DNA of 38,947 nt, taken from positions 1 to 38,947 of IMG/VR virus record IMGVR_UViG_3300005590_000048; one strand, 5' to 3'. The DNA comes from a virus. A program made the position numbers and the translations under genes. The notes under the pieces are model-generated. The model was not told the DNA's origin. It made no database searches and saw only the letters and a list, made by a program, of their open reading frames with translations. Position 1 is the stretch's first letter. Every line of letters starts with the position of its first letter. Of this stretch, positions 14,232 through 35,425 are shown one piece after another.

Positions 14232-14795
14232 TTAATTTCCTTTAGTTTTACGCGGTCTGCGCTTTGTTTCACATGGAACATCTTTGGGCTTGGGCACTTC
14301 GGCAACCACCGTCGGGTCCATCTTCTTCTGAGCTGCCAGTAGGATGTTGTGTATCCTGTTGGCCGCCTCAGTAGCCGGTAGCTGTTTGGGCACGTTATCT
14401 TCGATTGTTATACTATCGGTCTGCCAGCCTAACCACTGTTTCATCATGCTCTTGGCAAACGTCGCGTTCACCAGGTCGAGTGCCGCAGCACTGGCGATGG
14501 TCGTTTCCATAAACGCCTTGAAAATATCCACTGCCTCAACCCAGGGGCATGCCTCCGGGAGCAGTACATTTTCATTGTAGAGTTTTTGCAGGTTTTTTGG
14601 GGGTATCCGCATCTTGACGCAGAAGCCCTGGATGTTTGGCACTTCATCACCGATAAATACGTGGCGGCCTTTGAACTCACTTTTGCGCTCGCCCGACTCC
14701 TCGCAATAATCCGAGTGGTCTTCCTGGAATAACTCGAAAGTTTCCATGTAGGCGTACAGCGCTTGGGCTAAAAAATCAGGGGTGTATTCTTTCAT
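14232..14795 (-). CDS. terS: Terminase small subunit (putative)
   Basis: A 187-residue protein, first gene of the late block. A helix-turn-helix-like segment (VPNIQGFCVKMRIPPKNLQKLY, residues about 51-72) is followed by helices including LDLVNATFAKSMMKQWLGW (about residues 107-125), the plan of phage small terminases in which an N-terminal DNA-binding part recognises the packaging site and a central oligomerisation helix follows. The C-terminal 25 residues are basic and proline-rich. It precedes terL by one small gene. No Shine-Dalgarno site lies before ATG 14795, and a possible promoter -10 ends only 6 bases upstream, so a leaderless message is possible. Confidence is moderate because small terminases diverge strongly. 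Confidence 0.7.
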   Translation of the reverse strand: MKEYTPDFLAQALYAYMETFELFQEDHSDYCEESGERKSEFKGRHVFIGDEVPNIQGFCVKMRIPPKNLQKLYNENVLLPEACPWVEAVDIFKAFMETTIASAAALDLVNATFAKSMMKQWLGWQTDSITIEDNVPKQLPATEAANRIHNILLAAQKKMDPTVVAEVPKPKDVPCETKRRPRKTKGN

Positions 14796-14819
14796 ATAGA
14801 CATTGTAGTCAATCTATAC
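14796..14819. repeat. Imperfect 24-bp palindrome, candidate operator
   Basis: Arms TATAG and CTATA enclose inner arms ATTG and CAAT around a central TAGT, with an extra AC on the left side. The palindrome sits over the candidate late -10 box and touches the small terminase start codon. It shares TATAGAC and CTATACT words with the other control regions (15486-15513, 17556-17583, 24229-24260). Confidence 0.45.
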
Positions 14820-14831
14820 TGAAAATAGCAA
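14802..14831 (-). promoter_or_regulatory. Candidate late promoter upstream of the small terminase
   Basis: On the minus strand TTGCTA (14826-14831) and TACAAT (14802-14807) are 18 bases apart. The predicted start of transcription falls on or next to the ATG at 14795. The strong terminator at 14846-14884 blocks transcripts from further right, so a late promoter is expected in exactly this interval. The elements are imperfect and the spacer slightly long. Confidence 0.4.
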
Positions 14832-14845
14832 ATTTTTTATTTTTT

Positions 14846-14884
14846 AAAAAAGACCAGGGCCTCCCCATCAAAGAGGTCCTGGCC
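14846..14884 (-). terminator. Rho-independent terminator, leftward
   Basis: Arms 14852-14863 and 14873-14884 form a 12-bp stem with two G-U wobbles and a 9-base loop. Read on the minus strand the stem is followed by six T. It would stop leftward transcripts from the control region and isolate the late genes from it. Confidence 0.85.
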
Positions 14885-14890
14885 AAATAT

Positions 14891-14919
14891 CGTTGGGTGT
14901 GGCTGTGGAGTTCCCAACG
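14891..14919. repeat. Hairpin CGTTGGG / CCCAACG
   Basis: Perfect 7-bp arms at 14891-14897 and 14913-14919 with a 15-base loop, next to the leftward terminator. No T-run follows on either strand, so it is not an intrinsic terminator by itself. Confidence 0.45.
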
Positions 14920-15072
14920 ACCTGCCGATTGTAGGCGATTTTAATTTTTGATGTAAGCCTTCATGGCAAAGACGGCGACGGCTTTGCATATCGCGGGGTA
15001 CCCCCTCTCGATTTTCACACCAGATCGCAAATTCTCACGGGCCAGCGCGACAACCTGAAGGCCTGAAGGCTG

Positions 15073-15114
15073 GCGACAAATGGAGCGCGACAAATGGAGC
15101 GCGACAAATGGCGC
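15073..15114. repeat. Three tandem 14-bp repeats (iteron-like)
   Basis: The unit GCGACAAATGGAGC occurs at 15073-15086 and 15087-15100, and with one change (GCGACAAATGGCGC) at 15101-15114. Fourteen is not a multiple of three, so the repeats are not explained by a repeated peptide. Their position between the small terminase and the AT-rich repeat region suggests initiator or terminase binding sites. Confidence 0.65.
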
Positions 15115-15205
15115 ACAATAAATAACTAGCCAGGTATTTTTAACAGCGTGTAACACTGCATGCATATAGTCATGCTTCCAGGCCCGCGGGCACACACTTT
15201 TACGT

Positions 15206-15219
15206 TTGGTTAACCAAAA
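15206..15219. repeat. Palindrome TTTGGTTAACCAAA
   Basis: A perfect 14-bp palindrome made of two inverted TAACCAAA words. The same word recurs on both strands through 15265-15476, so this looks like one site of a family of protein-binding sites. Confidence 0.55.
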
Positions 15220-15283
15220 GGTTAGCTATTGGGTAGCTCTAAAAACAGCTTAACCTATTGATACCGTTACCAAATACCGCATT

Positions 15284-15397
15284 GGTTGGTTATTTGGTTA
15301 GATATTTTGCCTCAAACCTTATATACATATACGTATACACAAACTATAAAACCCTCTTATATATAAGTAGTAAAAACATCTAACCAAATAACCAACC
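15284..15397. repeat. Perfect 20-bp inverted repeat around an AT-rich core
   Basis: The left arm GGTTGGTTATTTGGTTAGAT (15284-15303) is the exact reverse complement of the right arm at 15378-15397. The 74-base interval is AT-rich, with alternating TATA/CATA/CGTA steps. Each arm contains a TAACCAAA word. The structure could bind an initiator on both sides of a melting region or extrude as a cruciform. Confidence 0.7.
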
Positions 15398-15485
15398 ACC
15401 TAAAAGAACACATGTAAAATCAATAACTTAGCTAACTTTTACACCTAACCAAAAGACCCCCCAAAGGTGTAACCAAACTAAACAC

Positions 15486-15513
15486 TTGCAATACTCTATA
15501 TAGACTCTATACT
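15486..15513 (+). promoter_or_regulatory. Early promoter P1 (sigma70 type)
   Basis: TTGCAA (15486-15491), 16-base spacer, TATACT (15508-15513). The spacer end plus -10 (CTATATAGACTCTATACT) is nearly identical to that of P2 at 17556-17583, differing at one base. Transcription would start near 15520, 30 bases before the first early gene, with AGAGGA as ribosome site. Confidence 0.75.
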
Positions 15514-15549
15514 TAACGTATGTTAAATAAATGAAGAGAGGAAACGCGC

Positions 15550-19504: not shown

Positions 19505-19773
19505 GCTTTATCAACGCGGGCCAGAATAACCCTGGCCCGATGTTGCATGTAATGAGCCACAGCCAAACGCACTAAAATATTATCCCCTTTTTTAATATCC
19601 CCCAGAGAAACCCCCAGCCAGTTAGCCAGCGCCTCGGGCCTTAAATCACAAGCGCCTAGGTTAATTTGGTGCTGTGTTTTATCAGGTATCGCCGGAGGCC
19701 TCACAGGAGCATTTTTTAACTCGGACCCGGAAAGCGAGGAGCCCCCAAGCCTTAAGCGCCTATTGTTACCCAT
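19501..19773 (-). CDS. Small protein downstream of the primase-helicase, unknown
   Basis: A 90-residue basic protein. The first 35 residues are Gly/Ser/Arg/Pro-rich and probably disordered, and the rest may form a helical domain (LRPEALANWLGVSLGDIKKGD, then LVRLAVAHYMQHRARVILAR). The helix-turn-helix-like look of ALANWLGVSLGDI could mean DNA binding. The ATG at 19773 overlaps the end of the primase-helicase gene by 8 bases, so it belongs to the same leftward operon. The stop overlaps that of the convergent early operon. No family was recognised. Confidence 0.6.
   Translation of the reverse strand: MGNNRRLRLGGSSLSGSELKNAPVRPPAIPDKTQHQINLGACDLRPEALANWLGVSLGDIKKGDNILVRLAVAHYMQHRARVILARVDKA
19517..19539. 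terminator. GC-rich hairpin at convergent gene ends
   Basis: CGGGCCAG (19517-19524), 7-base loop, CTGGCCCG (19532-19539), a perfect 8-bp stem 12 bases past the stop of the rightward early unit and inside the end of the leftward gene. No T-run follows, so it may only slow polymerase or protect the 3' end. Confidence 0.4.
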
Positions 19774-22108
19774 GGTTAACTACCTGGGCCAACGGTGTTG
19801 GAAGTAGCCACATATGCTTACCACCGGAAAGACTAAGCGCCCGTGTTTTACGGCCTTTAAGTTTAAGCTTACCACCCTTTGGCGTACTGTCTTTTAAATA
19901 AGCCCTAAGCCGTGAGAGGTATAATCTAATTTCTTTTTCAGAAGCGCCCGCAATTTCTGGCGAGGGTAACATAGATATAATCTCACGCTCAGTAAGACGG
20001 TGCCCCATTGTATTATTATGGTAGGCACGCAGTTTTAAGTCGGGCCATAAGCGCTTAAAATCTTGGACTATCACATCATCATTATATAAGGCAGCATCCA
20101 CCGCGGACTCCTCTACAAGCTCAGCTTGATCTACAGTTAAGCGCCTTGATAATTCACCTGATTGAACTTTGCAGTCTATCTCGGCCCATAATTGACCTAC
20201 ATCAATTTTATGGCTCCACTCTATTTCGTTACACTCAACAACCCAGAAGCGCCTATACCCGCCACCAGTCATATCAGATAGGAATAGTGAGTCATTCACG
20301 GTAGCGGAAAAGCTGGTCATACGTGGAAAGTCTAGCACCTCACGCCCGTATGGTGGCCGGTAACTGTCAACCTCTTCAGTCAAGAAAGCCTTGAGCGCTG
20401 CCATATCTGAGCGCCTGAAGGTACCGTCAAGCTCCCCTAGTTCAGTAATCCAGGCCCCACACGCCTTAGCTACGTCATCCTTATTACCTGGAGACATTAA
20501 CACACCGGTTTTTAAATAGTCTCTTAAGTGCCTGGGCACGAGCGATTGAAGTATAGCCGTCTTACCGATACCACCACGGCCCGTTAAAACCAACACAGCG
20601 CCGCCGCCTTGGTTTTCGCCACGGGCCATATCAACACATTGAGCGAGCCATGAAGGCACAACAATGTCACGCACACCGGAGTTATTGCAATCAAATAAGT
20701 TAAGAAAATCAGGAAGCCTTGAGCGCCCATCCCAAGTGAGGGTATCAAGCCAGTCAGCTACAGGGTTGTAGTCTACGGTCCTGAGCGTAACAGCCGCGTC
20801 AAATACATCCTTAAAGCCTGCGGTACCTGTGAACTCGGTTAGCACTGCCTGGCTACGCACCTGGCCGTAGACGTATTCGATATTTACACGTTCACCACGA
20901 ATAACACAATACTCTTTGCGATTAATAACATCGCGCACACGACGCACGCCGTGAGCGTCAAGGATAGCAACCAGATTATCAGTAGTAAGGGTTGGGCAGA
21001 GTTGCGAATTTTTTCCCGAACCCACCAGTTTCTTATTGGGGAAGAGATCATGCGGAAGAACTTCACCAAAATCATAAATACGGTTTTCATTATCGGGGGT
21101 AGGGTCATGGTCGCCACCTTGTTTAATTTCAGAAACATCTACACCAAGCGTAGTCGCCATATCCGCAAGCGCCACCTCTAAAGATACCGCGTCGCGGGAG
21201 CCTACTTCAATACCGGATTTATCATGCACCCAATCCAGGAAGTCATTAGTGCCTCCCTCATGTGAGTGATGACACTTGAACAACCGGTATTCAGGCTCAT
21301 CGCCTATACCGAGAGGCTTATAGCCTGCCTCATCACGCCCGTCGCTATGCTCTTTATGCCACGGGCACTGTATCTCATAGAAGCCGTTACCCTGTTTGCC
21401 ACGTACAAAGCCACCTTCCTGGAGCCACTCGAAAACCGGGTCAGCTATCTCAGGCATATCCATATCATTATAAGCGCTCGCGATATAGGAAACCCTGGAC
21501 ACCTTAGACTCCGGGGGTAGGTCCAGGTCAAATTTTTCAGCCAGCTCAGGCAAGTCGTAAGTTATATCTGGATTCCAAAGCGTAAGCGCTGACAGCCAGC
21601 CGCCGCGCCCCTCTTTCACATTCTTGGATAGCGGTACCCGCATTATCCTGGTCGAATCGAGAGTACCCTTGTCGGCGTACCCTTTAGCGCCCACGCCAGC
21701 CATGAACAACTCAAACCACTGCATGTTATCGACGGGAGTCGTGAGCATATAGCCGTATTGGAAGTTACCTTCAGATGTTTCGAGTATCCAGCTTGGTGAT
21801 ACCGGGGGCACCTCACACTTTGTACCAATGTCATCCAGTACAACACAATAGACGGCGCACATATCCTGCTTGCGTCGTTTCAATGTTGTAGTGCTGGTGT
21901 TTTTTACGGTTGAGATACCGAAATACCAGTCTACAGGGTCGCTGCTGCCGGTAGAAAATTTATTGAATGAATCGTGAGAGGGCCTGAGCTGTTTGAAGCG
22001 CCCCTTGTATTTCCCTTTGTGTATCGGTTTTGCTACAAGTATCGTCTCGTCATCCGGTACGTCGAAAAAGATTGCGTCTAAAAATTGCGTTGGTGTTATT
22101 TTTGTCAT
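19766..22108 (-). CDS. Primase-helicase fusion (PrimPol-like N-terminus, VapE/DUF5906-type SF3-like helicase)
   Basis: A 780-residue replication protein. The N-terminal 200 residues carry a VVLDDIG motif (D92, D93) and an RIMRVPLSKN segment, consistent with the archaeo-eukaryotic primase fold. A middle region has Cys/His pairs (CPWHKEH from residue 248; CHHSH from 279) that could bind zinc. The C-terminal half is a virulence-associated-E-like ATPase with P-loop GRGGIGKT (510-517), an acidic ITELGELDG Walker-B region (553-561), sensor-like FSATVND (600-606) and GGGYRRFWV with the arginine finger (616-624). It should open and prime the DNA for the polymerase encoded just upstream. Primase call moderate, helicase call strong. 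Confidence 0.85.
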   Translation of the reverse strand: MTKITPTQFLDAIFFDVPDDETILVAKPIHKGKYKGRFKQLRPSHDSFNKFSTGSSDPVDWYFGISTVKNTSTTTLKRRKQDMCAVYCVVLDDIGTKCEVPPVSPSWILETSEGNFQYGYMLTTPVDNMQWFELFMAGVGAKGYADKGTLDSTRIMRVPLSKNVKEGRGGWLSALTLWNPDITYDLPELAEKFDLDLPPESKVSRVSYIASAYNDMDMPEIADPVFEWLQEGGFVRGKQGNGFYEIQCPWHKEHSDGRDEAGYKPLGIGDEPEYRLFKCHHSHEGGTNDFLDWVHDKSGIEVGSRDAVSLEVALADMATTLGVDVSEIKQGGDHDPTPDNENRIYDFGEVLPHDLFPNKKLVGSGKNSQLCPTLTTDNLVAILDAHGVRRVRDVINRKEYCVIRGERVNIEYVYGQVRSQAVLTEFTGTAGFKDVFDAAVTLRTVDYNPVADWLDTLTWDGRSRLPDFLNLFDCNNSGVRDIVVPSWLAQCVDMARGENQGGGAVLVLTGRGGIGKTAILQSLVPRHLRDYLKTGVLMSPGNKDDVAKACGAWITELGELDGTFRRSDMAALKAFLTEEVDSYRPPYGREVLDFPRMTSFSATVNDSLFLSDMTGGGYRRFWVVECNEIEWSHKIDVGQLWAEIDCKVQSGELSRRLTVDQAELVEESAVDAALYNDDVIVQDFKRLWPDLKLRAYHNNTMGHRLTEREIISMLPSPEIAGASEKEIRLYLSRLRAYLKDSTPKGGKLKLKGRKTRALSLSGGKHMWLLPTPLAQVVNHG

Positions 22109-22205: not shown

Positions 22206-24209
22206 TTATTTACCGTACACAACTGCGGTGTCAATCGTACAGCCCATCGGTAAGCCGGTTGTCCAGTGTAAACCCTCCAACATTATTTCTTCAAGCAGTT
22301 TAATGTCAGCGTCTTCACATATAATCTCATCGTGAGTATGGCCAGCAACCACCAGCCCTTCATCCACGCAGGTTACAAGCTTATCTCTTAAGATGTCAGC
22401 GCAGGCAGCCTGGGTAATATTTTCTGCCAGGATTCCATACCAAAGATCGTGCCGGGTCCACTCGGTAGCATTGGCCTTCGGCCTGAGCGCTGCCTTCACC
22501 GCGGAAATAGTTTTACCGTAGCGCCCTTCAACAATACGAGCGTCGGCATAGTACAGATTGCGGCCGGAAGGCAGCTTGCATAATAACCAGGTAGTACCGG
22601 CGATACGTTCAGACCGGTAGGCCACGAGATTAACATCGAACCACCGACCAGGGCGGCGCATCGCACGCATGGCAGCTTTAGATAATTCCTTCCAGAAGGG
22701 TTGAGCCCAGGGGTTAGTCTTCCGCCACCCTGCAACTACACCGCTGGGATTATCAATACTAACTCCATAGCCTCTGGCCATAGCCAGTAGAGCGCCGTCA
22801 GCGCCTCCAAAACCAAGAGAAAGGCGAGCCACTTTACCGACTTGTCGTTCATCTTCGTCAATATCGTCTTTGTGATAGATTCCTTGGGCATCATAAATAT
22901 ACACATCCTCATCATTTCTAAATACATCCAGTAATATTTGAGCCGAAGCATAATGCCCGGCTAACCATGGTAAACACCGAGCCTCAATGCTTGACCAGTC
23001 AGCGTAGTTCAGCACACTGCCAGGTTCGGCGTGAATAACAGGCCTGAGCATGGAGCCAAGCGCGTCACCCAAACCCTGGGCAGGTTTTGATTTTCCAGGC
23101 TTACCCACCATTATAGGCTCTTTCTCAAAAGGTACATTTTTTCGCAGGGTAGCTTTAGCTTGCTCGATGTCGGTCACACACTGACGTTTCAAGTTATGCA
23201 TCTGGGCACCGGTAGAGCTGAAACGCCCGGTACCAGCACCGCCAGCAAACACGTAAGCACCTCGCAGCCTATCGTCTTCGGGATCCATGCGATCCAGCAT
23301 ACGATTGAACTTGGCGACCGCACTGTTAGAGCCAGCCTCGATCATTTCTATAAACTCAAGCACTTCAGGCTCCAGCTCATCAGCCCGCTTCAACAGGTCA
23401 GCCCTGATGTCAGAGGCGAAGGAGAATTTTTTCTCATCCTTTTTATACACGGTGCATGCATCCACGGCCCAGTCAGGTAGCCGAGGCTTAAGCCATGCGT
23501 TGATGCGTTGAAACTGCCTGGCCGTTTGCACATCACCATCAGTGAAAGCATTGAGCTTGCTGTTCAATTCAGCCTTCTCTTCAGCTGCTCGGTGGCTGGC
23601 TAACTGGCAGGCTTCACGATCAATCAATAACCCGCGGTCATTAATAATCTCATTAGCCCAGTATTCTTCCTGCTCCAGCTCGTCGAGTGGCGGTAGCGCG
23701 TCATCAATCACACGCTCCACACGCACATCCTGAAGGCAGTAAACCCCCAGCTCAGCAAGCACGTCGGGCTCCATGTTGAACGGCGGCACGCAGCACATCT
23801 GAATGAGTGCAGCACCGCGGGGGTCTTTCCTTAACGGCGCTCCCATGGCCTGGGCTGCGTGATCCAGCTTACCAGGTAGCCCACGGCTACGGCACAAGGC
23901 CGCAGTACAGTAGAACGACTCCAGAGGTGGCTCAGGCAGGTCATAGTCAGGGCACATGACGTACCAGAATATTAACCTCTCGAAGGCTGCGTTATGCGCG
24001 TGTATGCTGCCGTCGAGGCCGTCAGCCAGGTGCTTTTTTACGCGGTCAGGCACCTCCTGGCCTTCGGTCCACAGCTCAGGCTCTTCATCATCGAAGGCCC
24101 ACCCCATACAAATAACCTGGGTTGATGGATGTGTAGCGTACAAGTAGGCTCCGTGCTTAATCAGGTCTACCTCGCTTCGTGTTTCAAAATCAATATGTAG
24201 TATCTTCAT
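22206..24209 (-). CDS. Family A DNA polymerase with 3'-5' exonuclease
   Basis: A 667-residue replicative polymerase. The exonuclease domain has IDFETRS (D7, E9), HNAAFE (72-77) and YCLQD (157-161), so proofreading should be active. The polymerase domain has motif A NYADWSSIEAR (D404, E409), motif B RQVGKVARLSLGFGG (455-469) and motif C HDE (626-628). A T7-type thioredoxin-binding insertion was not evident. A GGA ribosome site precedes ATG 24209. It is the first gene of the leftward replication operon, transcribed from the promoter at 24253-24280, and works with the primase-helicase next to it. The assignment is secure. Confidence 0.95.
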   Translation of the reverse strand: MKILHIDFETRSEVDLIKHGAYLYATHPSTQVICMGWAFDDEEPELWTEGQEVPDRVKKHLADGLDGSIHAHNAAFERLIFWYVMCPDYDLPEPPLESFYCTAALCRSRGLPGKLDHAAQAMGAPLRKDPRGAALIQMCCVPPFNMEPDVLAELGVYCLQDVRVERVIDDALPPLDELEQEEYWANEIINDRGLLIDREACQLASHRAAEEKAELNSKLNAFTDGDVQTARQFQRINAWLKPRLPDWAVDACTVYKKDEKKFSFASDIRADLLKRADELEPEVLEFIEMIEAGSNSAVAKFNRMLDRMDPEDDRLRGAYVFAGGAGTGRFSSTGAQMHNLKRQCVTDIEQAKATLRKNVPFEKEPIMVGKPGKSKPAQGLGDALGSMLRPVIHAEPGSVLNYADWSSIEARCLPWLAGHYASAQILLDVFRNDEDVYIYDAQGIYHKDDIDEDERQVGKVARLSLGFGGADGALLAMARGYGVSIDNPSGVVAGWRKTNPWAQPFWKELSKAAMRAMRRPGRWFDVNLVAYRSERIAGTTWLLCKLPSGRNLYYADARIVEGRYGKTISAVKAALRPKANATEWTRHDLWYGILAENITQAACADILRDKLVTCVDEGLVVAGHTHDEIICEDADIKLLEEIMLEGLHWTTGLPMGCTIDTAVVYGK

Positions 24210-26491: not shown

Positions 26492-27133
26492 ATGTCAAAA
26501 CAAGTAGCTAACCCAGACGCCGCCACCCTGGCCGCGCAAATCGAACAAGCTATTGCGACAAGCCCCGCTGTATCCGGTGACATCGCGTTCATGAAATTCG
26601 CTAAAGGCGAATGGTTATATGGTGCTGATGAAGATGAAGCTGCAACAACATCTTTATGGGCCGTTAACCCTAAGTCATTCTGCCAAGGCTATATAGTTTG
26701 GGGCGATAATGAAGTAGAAGATGAACAAATGGCTCAACTTGGTCAACCTGCTCCATCTATGCCTGCGGGCGCCGATGCCCAGGTAGCCTTTGAAATGCTT
26801 TGTATTGAAGGTGAAGATGAAGGTACTCGCGTACTCTTCAAAACCTCCAGTAAAGGTGGCCGCAAGGCTGTTATGAAGCTGATCAAAGCTGTCGGCCTAC
26901 AGTCTAAAGAAGGCCAGCCGTTTGTACCTGTGTGTCTCCTGGATAAGGATTCATATAAGCACAAAGAGTTCGGAAAAATCTACACACCAGTATTTACTGT
27001 GGAAGAGTGGATTAATGAATCCGATATAGGCACACCTGCTGAGCCTGAAGAGGTTGAGCCTGAAGAGGTTGAGCCTGAGCCGGAAAAAGAAGAAGAAGAA
27101 GCACCGAAGCGTCGCAGACGCCGTGCCTCTTAA
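26492..27133 (+). CDS. Putative single-stranded DNA-binding protein (DUF2815-like position)
   Basis: A 213-residue protein. Residues 30-165 look like a beta-rich domain (IAFMKFAKGEWLYGADEDE, SLWAVNPKSFCQGYIVWGD, YTPVFTVEEWI) similar to phage ssDNA-binding proteins found next to DUF2800 genes. The C-terminal tail is strongly acidic (PEEVEPEEVEPEPEKEEEE), as in SSB and T7 gp2.5, but then ends in RRRRRR-type basic residues (KRRRRRAS), which is unusual. It would coat single strands made by replication and by the neighbouring nuclease. Specific family (DUF2815 or another) not certain. Confidence 0.7.
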   Translation: MSKQVANPDAATLAAQIEQAIATSPAVSGDIAFMKFAKGEWLYGADEDEAATTSLWAVNPKSFCQGYIVWGDNEVEDEQMAQLGQPAPSMPAGADAQVAFEMLCIEGEDEGTRVLFKTSSKGGRKAVMKLIKAVGLQSKEGQPFVPVCLLDKDSYKHKEFGKIYTPVFTVEEWINESDIGTPAEPEEVEPEEVEPEPEKEEEEAPKRRRRRAS

Positions 27134-27401: not shown

Positions 27402-28747
27402 AAACCACTGACCTGCTACCCAAGTCAGCACTCAGGCCGTACCAGAACGATCTGATAACCCACCTGTACGAGCATGACGGCACACTGGCCAGGCTCCCTA
27501 TGGGCGCAGGTAAGACGGTCTGCACACTGACAGCCATTAAGGAACTCATTGATGACGGTGTATTAAACAAGGTACTGGTGGTAGCACCGTTGCGCGTAGC
27601 GACGCTTGTGTGGAAGCAGGAGGCCGCACGCTGGGAGCATCTGGCCGGCATGAAAGTGGCTATTGCTTGCGGTAACGAGAAGCAAAGGCTTAAGGGCCTG
27701 GCAGAATACCCTGACGTACTGACTATTAACATAGAAAACTTGCCGTGGTTCGTCAGCAACGGCCACCTAAAATATTTCGACGGCATTGTCTTCGACGAGA
27801 TAACCAAATTCAAAGCACCAACAGGCAAACGCCTTAAGGCCATTGAGAAAGATGTCAGCCAGATAGGTTGGCGCGTCGGCCTGACTGGCTCCATCAGGCC
27901 CCAGGACTTACAGGATGTCTTCGCACCGATGAAACTGGTGACGAATGACAGGCCGCTGGGCAAAAACATTACAGCCTTCAGGAAGTCTTTTATGATACGT
28001 GACCCTTATGTTACAGGCCGGTATCATGCTATCCCTGGAATGGAAGAAACGGTTGCGAAGAAAATGAGTAAATGGGTTTACCAAATACCTGAAGAAGATT
28101 ACCTGGACCAACTACCTGAGCTGAATATCGTCAGGGTTCCGGTCGTTATGCCGAAGAAGGCTGTTGATGTCTACAAGAAAATGAAGTTTGAATACATGGC
28201 CGAAGATGTTGAAGCCCTTAGCGCTGCATCTATGGTCCTGAAGCTGCAACAAATCACATCCGGTTTTATGTATGGGCCTGACAACACTGTGGTCAAAGTA
28301 CATGACGCCAAGCAAGAAGCACTGAGAGAATTATGCAACGAGACTACCGGCAATATTTTGATAGCTTACTGGTTTCAAGAAGACCTGAGACTCATAAAGC
28401 AGGTTTTAGGGTGTCATCACTTAGGCTCAGGGGTGAACCAAAAGAAAGCCGACTCGATAGTTACCGAGTGGAACGCAGGCAACATAAAAGAGTTGGCCGT
28501 ACACCCGGCATCAGTAGGCCACGGCTTAAACCTTCAAGACGGAGGCAACACGATCATCTGGTTTACTGGTGTATATTCTTTCGAGCTTCACGAACAATTG
28601 ATCGCCAGGCTCAGGCGCTCTGGACAGTCTTCAGGGCATGTAACCAGTATGCACCTTATCGCGGCGGAGATAGACGACGTGGTACTACAGACCGCGCTTG
28701 GTAAGGGTGACATTCAAGATAATTTTGTGAGGTTTTTAGATGCTTAG
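27398..28747 (+). CDS. SNF2/DEAD-type helicase
   Basis: A 449-residue superfamily 2 ATPase. Motif I MGAGKT (35-40), motif Ia VVAPLRVA, motif II VFDEITKFK (131-139, DEIT instead of DEAH), motif III GLTGS near 165, and in the second domain HPASVGHGLNLQDG and QLIARLRRSGQ with the arginine finger of motif VI. It resembles phage SNF2-like helicases encoded after VRR-NUC genes. A role in fork remodelling or recombination is likely; the exact substrate cannot be read from the sequence. It begins at ATG 27398, overlapping the nuclease stop. Confidence 0.9.
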   Translation: MKTTDLLPKSALRPYQNDLITHLYEHDGTLARLPMGAGKTVCTLTAIKELIDDGVLNKVLVVAPLRVATLVWKQEAARWEHLAGMKVAIACGNEKQRLKGLAEYPDVLTINIENLPWFVSNGHLKYFDGIVFDEITKFKAPTGKRLKAIEKDVSQIGWRVGLTGSIRPQDLQDVFAPMKLVTNDRPLGKNITAFRKSFMIRDPYVTGRYHAIPGMEETVAKKMSKWVYQIPEEDYLDQLPELNIVRVPVVMPKKAVDVYKKMKFEYMAEDVEALSAASMVLKLQQITSGFMYGPDNTVVKVHDAKQEALRELCNETTGNILIAYWFQEDLRLIKQVLGCHHLGSGVNQKKADSIVTEWNAGNIKELAVHPASVGHGLNLQDGGNTIIWFTGVYSFELHEQLIARLRRSGQSSGHVTSMHLIAAEIDDVVLQTALGKGDIQDNFVRFLDA

Positions 28748-33895: not shown

Positions 33896-35425
33896 TTACT
33901 CCGATAACTTAATGACAGAAAGTGAACGCTCATGCACGTTAGCAGTATCAGTAGTATACCACCACACATCAAATGTATGGCTGCCTGCACCTACCACGGT
34001 CACTAACTCAGAGTGAATATTGTATATCGCTTCTTTCTTCTTAAAGAATACTTGCCTTAAAGTCCAGGCTGCCGCTACAGCATCCTGACGTATGTAGTAA
34101 GACATAACATGGTCATCTGAATCAACATTACCCGTACCATCAAAAACGCACAGGAATGTACCTGGCCCCGTTACGGTGACAGACATTGAAGGCATTAAGT
34201 CACCCGGCGCACCTAGCGAGGTACTTGGTGAGTTGGTTGCAACGGAAGTCGAGGCTTCGTTCAAGCCGTAAATATCACTACGTTCTTGGTTGGTGATTAT
34301 CGCACCTGAGCCCGCGTTACTAACGTCACTGTGGGTAGTTACCGATCCGGTAGCTGATACCTTATTATCCCAAGCTGTCTGCTCAGCATCCGAAGGTATG
34401 TTACCGTCGCCTACCGAGTTAATATCGCTCAACAATGCTGCGGAGGTATTCTGGAAAACAGGGTCGAGATTAATATCCAAAAGAGGCGTAGGGTCGTTAC
34501 GTCTTGAGCCTGCAATTATCCGGTAAGTAGGTGATCCCGCGGGATCGGGAGTTCCCCCAGGCCTGTCTGGGTTAAGGCCTAAAATATATTGAATATCATA
34601 ATCAATATCGTCGTCAAACTTTAACTGATTAAGTGCGTCGGTTGCCGTAGTACCGGCTACATCTGACGCATTAGCTATCTCATTCGTTGAAGGTGGCGGC
34701 ACTACAGGCGCAACGGCGGCTATATTACCAACACACTGTTCAACCCAATGCTCTTGCGTACCGGTGTTAAAACGGATAAAACTCTGACCTGTTGACGGTA
34801 TGGTCCAGGTATCATTAACCCTCGCGGCACCAGGCTCAGTTTCCTGAGCGTAGTTCGTCGGGGTTTCATGGGGGTTAGCCACATCAGCTACATGGTCAGT
34901 AATCTGAGTCTGTAAGTCTTCAAGCTCAGTGCCTAATTCAAAATTCTCAAGCACACCTTCCACATCCGACCACATAGGTATCGCACCTTCAAGGTACGCA
35001 GGGAATATAACGTCGTATGTAGGTAAAGGTTGATCTGGATCAAGGCTTATCTTATACACCAGTTCATCGCGTATACGCTGAACAACTAAAGTCTGCTTGT
35101 CGATAGCCTGCTCGTGTAAGTCCGCGGGGAAACGCTCAAACGGTGAGTAATCCACGGTCTGGTCAGCAGGCACGTTCTGGCGTATAGACACCACGGCCTG
35201 GTCCGCTGGTGCGGTGTTGAAAGTTACCTTGGCGCTAACTACTGGGTTCGCCAGGTCAGCAGGCTTACCGTTTGCTGTCTCAAGATCAACAGTGTAACCT
35301 GTGACATCTGCGCTATCGACACGCACAATAAGCTCATCGGCATTGTATATTGGAGCCGGGTAGAAATACTCAACCGCTACGCCGTTGCCAGTGTAGTGGT
35401 ATATCGTGGGTTTATCATCAATCAT
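33896..35425 (-). CDS. Tail fibre protein (T7 gp17-like N-terminus)
   Basis: A 509-residue protein. The N-terminal 150 residues (IYHYTGNGVAVEYFYPAPIY, then VTFNTAPADQAVVSIRQNV and an HEQAIDKQTLVVQRIRDEL helix) match the T7 gp17-type anchoring domain that attaches the fibre to the tail. The remainder is beta-rich, with a LEDLQTQITDHVADVANPHET helix and a C-terminal jelly-roll-like part (FLCVFDGTGNVDSDDHVMSYY). It overlaps the end of the giant protein gene by 8 bases. Anchor domain clear; receptor tip uncertain. Confidence 0.85.
   Translation of the reverse strand: MIDDKPTIYHYTGNGVAVEYFYPAPIYNADELIVRVDSADVTGYTVDLETANGKPADLANPVVSAKVTFNTAPADQAVVSIRQNVPADQTVDYSPFERFPADLHEQAIDKQTLVVQRIRDELVYKISLDPDQPLPTYDVIFPAYLEGAIPMWSDVEGVLENFELGTELEDLQTQITDHVADVANPHETPTNYAQETEPGAARVNDTWTIPSTGQSFIRFNTGTQEHWVEQCVGNIAAVAPVVPPPSTNEIANASDVAGTTATDALNQLKFDDDIDYDIQYILGLNPDRPGGTPDPAGSPTYRIIAGSRRNDPTPLLDINLDPVFQNTSAALLSDINSVGDGNIPSDAEQTAWDNKVSATGSVTTHSDVSNAGSGAIITNQERSDIYGLNEASTSVATNSPSTSLGAPGDLMPSMSVTVTGPGTFLCVFDGTGNVDSDDHVMSYYIRQDAVAAAWTLRQVFFKKKEAIYNIHSELVTVVGAGSHTFDVWWYTTDTANVHERSLSVIKLSE

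Follow-up and report, generated by a model that had tools for sequence, protein, structure and literature searches.

The stretch from 15205 to 15477 of a tailed-phage record, a 38,947-bp IMG/VR sequence that was analysed over its whole length and is called the window here, is probably the replication origin of the phage, and it would work like origins of the SaPI type. The layout of this stretch, the conservation of the layout at its place in the genome and the presence of a SaPI-Rep-like primase-helicase are each evident from the sequence and from comparison with other phages. To our knowledge, few tailed phages other than a handful of models have a known replication origin. The signature described below predicts origins in many phages, including Bordetella phage BPP-1 (26607–26710).

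Repeats in the divergent gap of the window

Profile searches identified tail, capsid, head-tail adaptor and TerL genes reading leftward from 14795. Small early genes read rightward from 15550, as do a DUF2800 exonuclease and a DEAD helicase, also identified by profile search. The divergent gap between the two groups (14796–15549, 754 bp) houses both a cluster of short words and an inverted repeat. The sole ORF there is an unsupported 84-aa GTG ORF on the minus strand, and a search of the region for RNA families and tRNAs found none. The features of the window are as follows.

14232–14795, minus strand: putative small terminase (TerS, by position), first gene of the leftward late operon
15205–15218, no strand: palindrome TTTGGTTAACCAAA, two overlapping inverted iterons
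15283–15303, minus strand: terminase-side arm, doublet of TAACCAA at 15286 and 15294 with an 8-bp step
15304–15377, no strand: AT-rich core, proposed melting site, 74 nt between the exact arms
15378–15398, plus strand: early-gene-side arm, inverted doublet of TAACCAA at 15381 and 15389
15446–15453, plus strand: additional iteron TAACCAAA
15470–15477, plus strand: additional iteron TAACCAAA
15550–15741, plus strand: first gene of the rightward early operon, 63 aa, HTH-like by eye only
19766–22108, minus strand: primase-helicase, proposed initiator, with an AEP primase N-terminus and a VapE-like helicase at 454–667
22206–24209, minus strand: family A DNA polymerase (PolA), in the same replication module as the primase-helicase

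The original prediction had described a concentration of repeats in this gap, and these repeats are real. The word cluster and the inverted repeat both lie far above chance. TAACCAA occurs eight times within 271 bp (15206–15476), compared with at most four copies per 300 bp for the next-best unrelated 7-mer in the window and three to four in order-2 Markov genomes. The longer word TAACCAAA is found nine times in the window, a count matched by none of 100 shuffles, and six of these copies are in the cluster, at 15205(-), 15211, 15293(-), 15381, 15446 and 15470. The predicted 14-bp palindrome is exact. The inverted repeat is also exact and has the 74 nt between its arms that had been given, but the arms are 21 bp long rather than 20, or 26 nt if one mismatch is allowed. 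It is unique in the window: there is no second exact inverted repeat of at least 13 bp with arms within 200 nt. The most natural reading of the repeat is a pair of iteron doublets that face one another. A cruciform was considered and judged unlikely because of the 74-nt spacer. Measured between the words rather than the arms, the core is 80 nt long and 74% A+T. Its A+T content peaks beside the early-gene-side doublet, a trend that most relatives share.

The tandem 14-mer GCGACAAATGGAGC is present as predicted (15073–15111, plus strand, 2.8 copies); it is a different word from TAACCAA, and no link to the TAACCAA system or to the layout was shown. Cumulative GC skew, proposed earlier as a check, does have a local minimum at the region, but a deeper minimum lies near 24 kb and both track gene orientation, so the skew speaks neither for nor against an origin here. 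Just upstream of the first late gene, a hairpin followed by a T-run is found on the minus strand at 14850–14884, with a second stem beside it at about 14894–14922. The hairpin and T-run resemble a terminator that would stop leftward transcription coming out of the origin region.

The same layout with different words in relatives

When phage records were searched for near-identical copies of the region, no match was obtained, and no close relatives of the window phage were found in the collections searched. An exact search of IMG/VR with an 18-mer of the arm returned nine contigs, which were taken as chance matches; one of them, L006, is a VapE phage that has iterons of its own at another place on the contig. 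A set of relatives was defined as 80 IMG/VR loci fetched by alignment of three PolA proteins, with PolA 39–45% identical. Many of these loci carry 7-mer doublets with a 9-bp step, 5–7 kb past PolA, inverted around ∼100–130 bp of AT-rich DNA. A detector for inverted doublets matched 31 of 86 loci compared with 6 of 258 shuffled loci. Among the 42 loci that hold the whole interval from primase-helicase to TerL, 20 were matched inside the interval (165 kb) and none in the 555 kb outside it, although one of the 20, in the GC-rich locus L029, is probably a spurious chance match. The other 22 have no inverted doublet in the interval, and some of them have other word clusters. The core was more A+T-rich than its own locus in all 26 cases listed, with the excess as a rule strongest beside the early-gene-side doublet. 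The doublet step is 8 bp in the window versus 9 in most relatives.

The words themselves vary from phage to phage: nTAACCAAA in the window, and nTGACCCAA/T, TTGCCTACA, TTGCCCACA, TTGCCCTCA and TTGTCCACA elsewhere. The exact word of the window is not shared with any relative found. Comparison supports the origin reading, for which absence of the repeats from close relatives had been named as a refutation: relatives lack the exact words, but the layout is conserved in them between the replication genes and the terminase. The circular phage MW202483 (L017) has, at the corresponding place, CTACCAA words in inverted orientation on either side of an AT-rich stretch; this site does not pass the strict detector. 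Next to the CTACCAA site of this phage, at 28224–28486, lies a further cluster made up of another word (TTTATGTAAACA, about 10 copies). In MW202742 (L018), CGGAAA-type clusters lie at 28475–28744 and 34560–34688, beside the repA gene and just before terL, a possible two-site origin.

Some of the words are related to DnaA boxes. Those of L056 include the perfect DnaA box TTATCCACA, perfect boxes are also present in L071, L081 and L084, and the words of many relatives are only a few positions off such a box. There are eight perfect boxes in the 21 kb around sites versus three in 461 kb elsewhere; all eight fall in loci with a DnaA-like word, so this count is not independent of the word. The boxes at the sites of some relatives tie the layout to replication. 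They could also mean that a host factor, DnaA or another, opens the origin and that the phage helicase is loaded only afterwards. We consider this very unlikely for the window, where no DnaA box (TTWTNCACA) is present in the region, the two in the window being elsewhere (17856 and 18289), and neither TAACCAAA nor TGACCCAA, for example, is a DnaA box.

Sites beside VapE- and D5-type helicase genes

If the VapE-type helicase is the initiator, phages with that helicase type should carry sites near the helicase gene. This was the case in L004 and L005, which are TerL relatives, and in L006. The first two have four copies of TGTCACCct, an AT core and four inverted copies, and in L005 the layout starts ∼22 bp after the helicase stop codon and ∼2 kb from terS. 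In L006, GTGGTAAga doublets lie directly 3′ of the helicase stop codon. The layout also lies directly downstream of the bordering VapE/D5-type helicase gene in L103–L111, and a scan by VapE alignment found it in nine of nine loci, which belong to the same two clades as L004/L005 and L006.

For scans of cultured phages, the gap range of the detector was widened to 40–200. Eight cultured phages were surveyed. In Yersinia phage YeP5 the primase stop codon is followed directly by the complete layout. Shewanella SFCi1 passes the detector upstream of VapE, but the gap is GC-rich. Looser iteron clusters were found 3′ of VapE in Listeria phage LWP01 and at the helicase gene in Vibrio 1.009, the latter meeting the detector weakly. 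The remaining four have no iteron layout at the helicase gene. The layout is absent from HTVC010P and SR18. Acinetobacter phage 4316 has it, with another word, between the primase stop codon and terS.

In BPP-1, TTGCCTCGTTTGCCTCG, a 70-nt AT-rich gap and an inverted copy lie at 26607–26710, between terS and the primase, where the record annotates no origin feature. The site resembles that of the window in its inverted doublets (TTTGCCTCG, 9-bp step), its AT-rich gap and the same exonuclease/PolA/helicase gene set. It differs in having its own word, and a D5_N-type helicase takes the place of VapE. Limnohabitans phage DC33 (PQ492659.1, L015), whose 39-kb record encodes a BPP-1-like terminase 49% identical to the TerL of the window, is filed under Inoviridae; this placement is likely a taxonomic mislabel.

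The site adjoins terS in the window and in most relatives, and might for this reason be a packaging (pac or cos) site bound by the small terminase, all the more as the terminal repeats of phage phiM5 lie beside the terminase. However, the TerS of the window shows no detectable similarity to those of BPP-1, 4316, L092 and L005, and the layout persists in all four, which makes packaging a most improbable function. The words resemble DnaA boxes, TerS does not co-vary with the word (r 0.05), and the L005 site is by the helicase gene rather than by terS. In Sinorhizobium phage phiM5 (L102) itself, a cluster of ATTGCGC is found at 43215–43521, just outside the terminal repeat.

The primase-helicase as candidate initiator

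The origin reading calls for a protein that recognizes the words. The original prediction had proposed the primase-helicase, the small terminase or an early protein. The first is now favoured and the second disfavoured, and among the 27 origin-bearing loci no small early DNA-binding protein is common to all. The primase-helicase and PolA are encoded in 27 of 27. The helicase of the window matches PF05272 with 142 bits in a profile search, and its domain matches PriRep1 (7pds, listed in the structure library with dsDNA) with an E value of 1.1e-13. The 3′ end of the gene faces the site from 4.3 kb away. In relatives, the profile of the primase-helicase matches the NrS-1 primase, and a confident model of the L092 protein (pLDDT 86.5) matches NrS-1, the SaPI5 primase-helicase (7ola) and PriRep1 (7pds); the order of helices and strands at the C-terminus of this model appears winged-helix-like. 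The model of the window protein can be trusted no further than the AEP primase part, which has the AEP primase fold, and is poor beyond it because the relatives have a different type of helicase. Across the phages, the AEP half is conserved and the helicase half varies: the window has VapE, most relatives have a DUF5906/NrS-1-like type and BPP-1 has D5_N.

In both SaPI Rep and SCCmec Cch2 the iterons are recognized by the C-terminal domain, and SaPI Rep apparently acts as two hexamers (PMC7581432). Near the site, the only gene common to all origin-bearing relatives whose product might plausibly be the binder is that of the primase-helicase, in which an AEP primase is joined to a helicase of the VapE/D5 group and which is related to the primase-helicases of SaPIs and to NrS-1 polymerase. 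Given its presence in every origin-bearing locus, the lack of a shared small protein, the matches to PriRep1, NrS-1 and SaPI5 and the precedent of SaPI Rep and Cch2, we are inclined to regard it as the binder of the iterons. Co-variation between word and protein did not single it out: its best segment gave r 0.26 with a max-statistic P of 0.25, which did not exceed the result for PolA. The primases of BPP-1 and 4316 are near-orthologous and the words of the two phages differ, and a segment-by-segment comparison of identity in this pair revealed no clear specificity domain.

Other early proteins were also considered. A match to Bac_DnaA_C was found in 6 of 50 related records, four over the cut-off. 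A phage protein with DnaA domain IV was rejected as a universal binder, since it occurs in those six records only and is absent from the window. The small early-region proteins with this match are in L028, L017, L076 and L079 (for example L017, 31423–31719), and in the last three the protein is encoded ∼2.5 kb from the origin site. A family of early proteins of 200–280 aa occurs in L032, L042, L049, L067, L078 and L099 (for example L067, 15666–16307). Its L067 member matches the central domain of DNA polymerase III beta, the sliding clamp, and phages with this family may carry their own clamp.

The cores of L032, L064, L065, L066, L078 and L084 contain LexA-like CTG-N10-CAG boxes (for example L066, 7774–7895), which fit the SOS consensus at as many as 19 of 20 positions; AT-rich boxes of this kind occur at ∼0.04 per kb over all loci. 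A promoter is therefore likely there, and the boxes suggest that in these relatives a promoter at the origin is under SOS control. Such boxes, the proteins with a Bac_DnaA_C match, the divergent gap and a sigma-70-like site within it at 15486–15513 would all suit an operator, with the words as sites of a phage regulator that acts as the switch for the two divergent promoters, early rightward and late leftward, and with a promoter instead of a melting site in the core. We think this unlikely. In L005, L006, YeP5 and 4316 the layout follows the helicase stop codon instead of occupying a divergent gap, and a regulator would have to be found where the origin-bearing loci share no small DNA-binding protein; the 63-aa first early protein of the window gave zero matches in a database search and has no detectable relative.

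Proposed mechanism of initiation

For the favoured origin, we infer the start of replication, the identity of the binding protein and the loading order of two hexamers. The phage primase-helicase would bind the 8-nt words as iterons, and the inverted doublets at 15283–15303 and 15378–15398 would place two helicase assemblies face to face across the AT core. The core would then melt and one helicase would be loaded per strand, after which the AEP primase domain would prime and the phage family A polymerase would extend.

A broader proposal, which we put forward tentatively and with a little less than even confidence, is that one layout of inverted doublets and AT core is used by a wide range of phages in which AEP primases are joined to three alternative types of helicase (VapE, DUF5906/NrS-1-like and D5_N), and that the word drifts fast, being a perfect host DnaA box in some phages and an unrelated word in others, giving each phage a private initiator–origin code. 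From a limited literature search, the breadth of the layout, the fast-changing words and the presence in BPP-1 appear to be new. The choice of origin by primase-helicases becomes testable, with BPP-1 and 4316 as a ready-made comparison of specificity.

Comparison with known origin systems

In phage P4, the iterons of ori and crr are read directly by the alpha primase-helicase and two separated sites are needed; the window has one cluster only. The origins of SV40 and the papillomaviruses, viruses unrelated to the window phage, have sites for the helicase (T-antigen or E1), partly inverted, beside an AT tract; the helicase acts as two hexamers and its binding domain is N-terminal. A likeness to bacterial oriC is seen in those relatives of the window that have perfect DnaA boxes at the site.

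The closest comparison is with SaPI and SCCmec elements (SaPI Rep, PriRep1 and Cch2; PMC7581432), each of which reads its short iterons with a VapE/D5-group helicase or primase-helicase of its own. The window encodes a primase-helicase of this group and has multiple short iterons beside an AT-rich stretch. It differs in that the iterons form inverted doublets with a step of 8–9 bp around an AT core, and in that the site lies in the gap between divergent early and late genes. SaPI-type origins adjoin the helicase gene, as do the sites in L005, L006, YeP5 and 4316. In the window the two are separated by 4.3 kb, and the origin is therefore filed as a variant of the SaPI type rather than a member.
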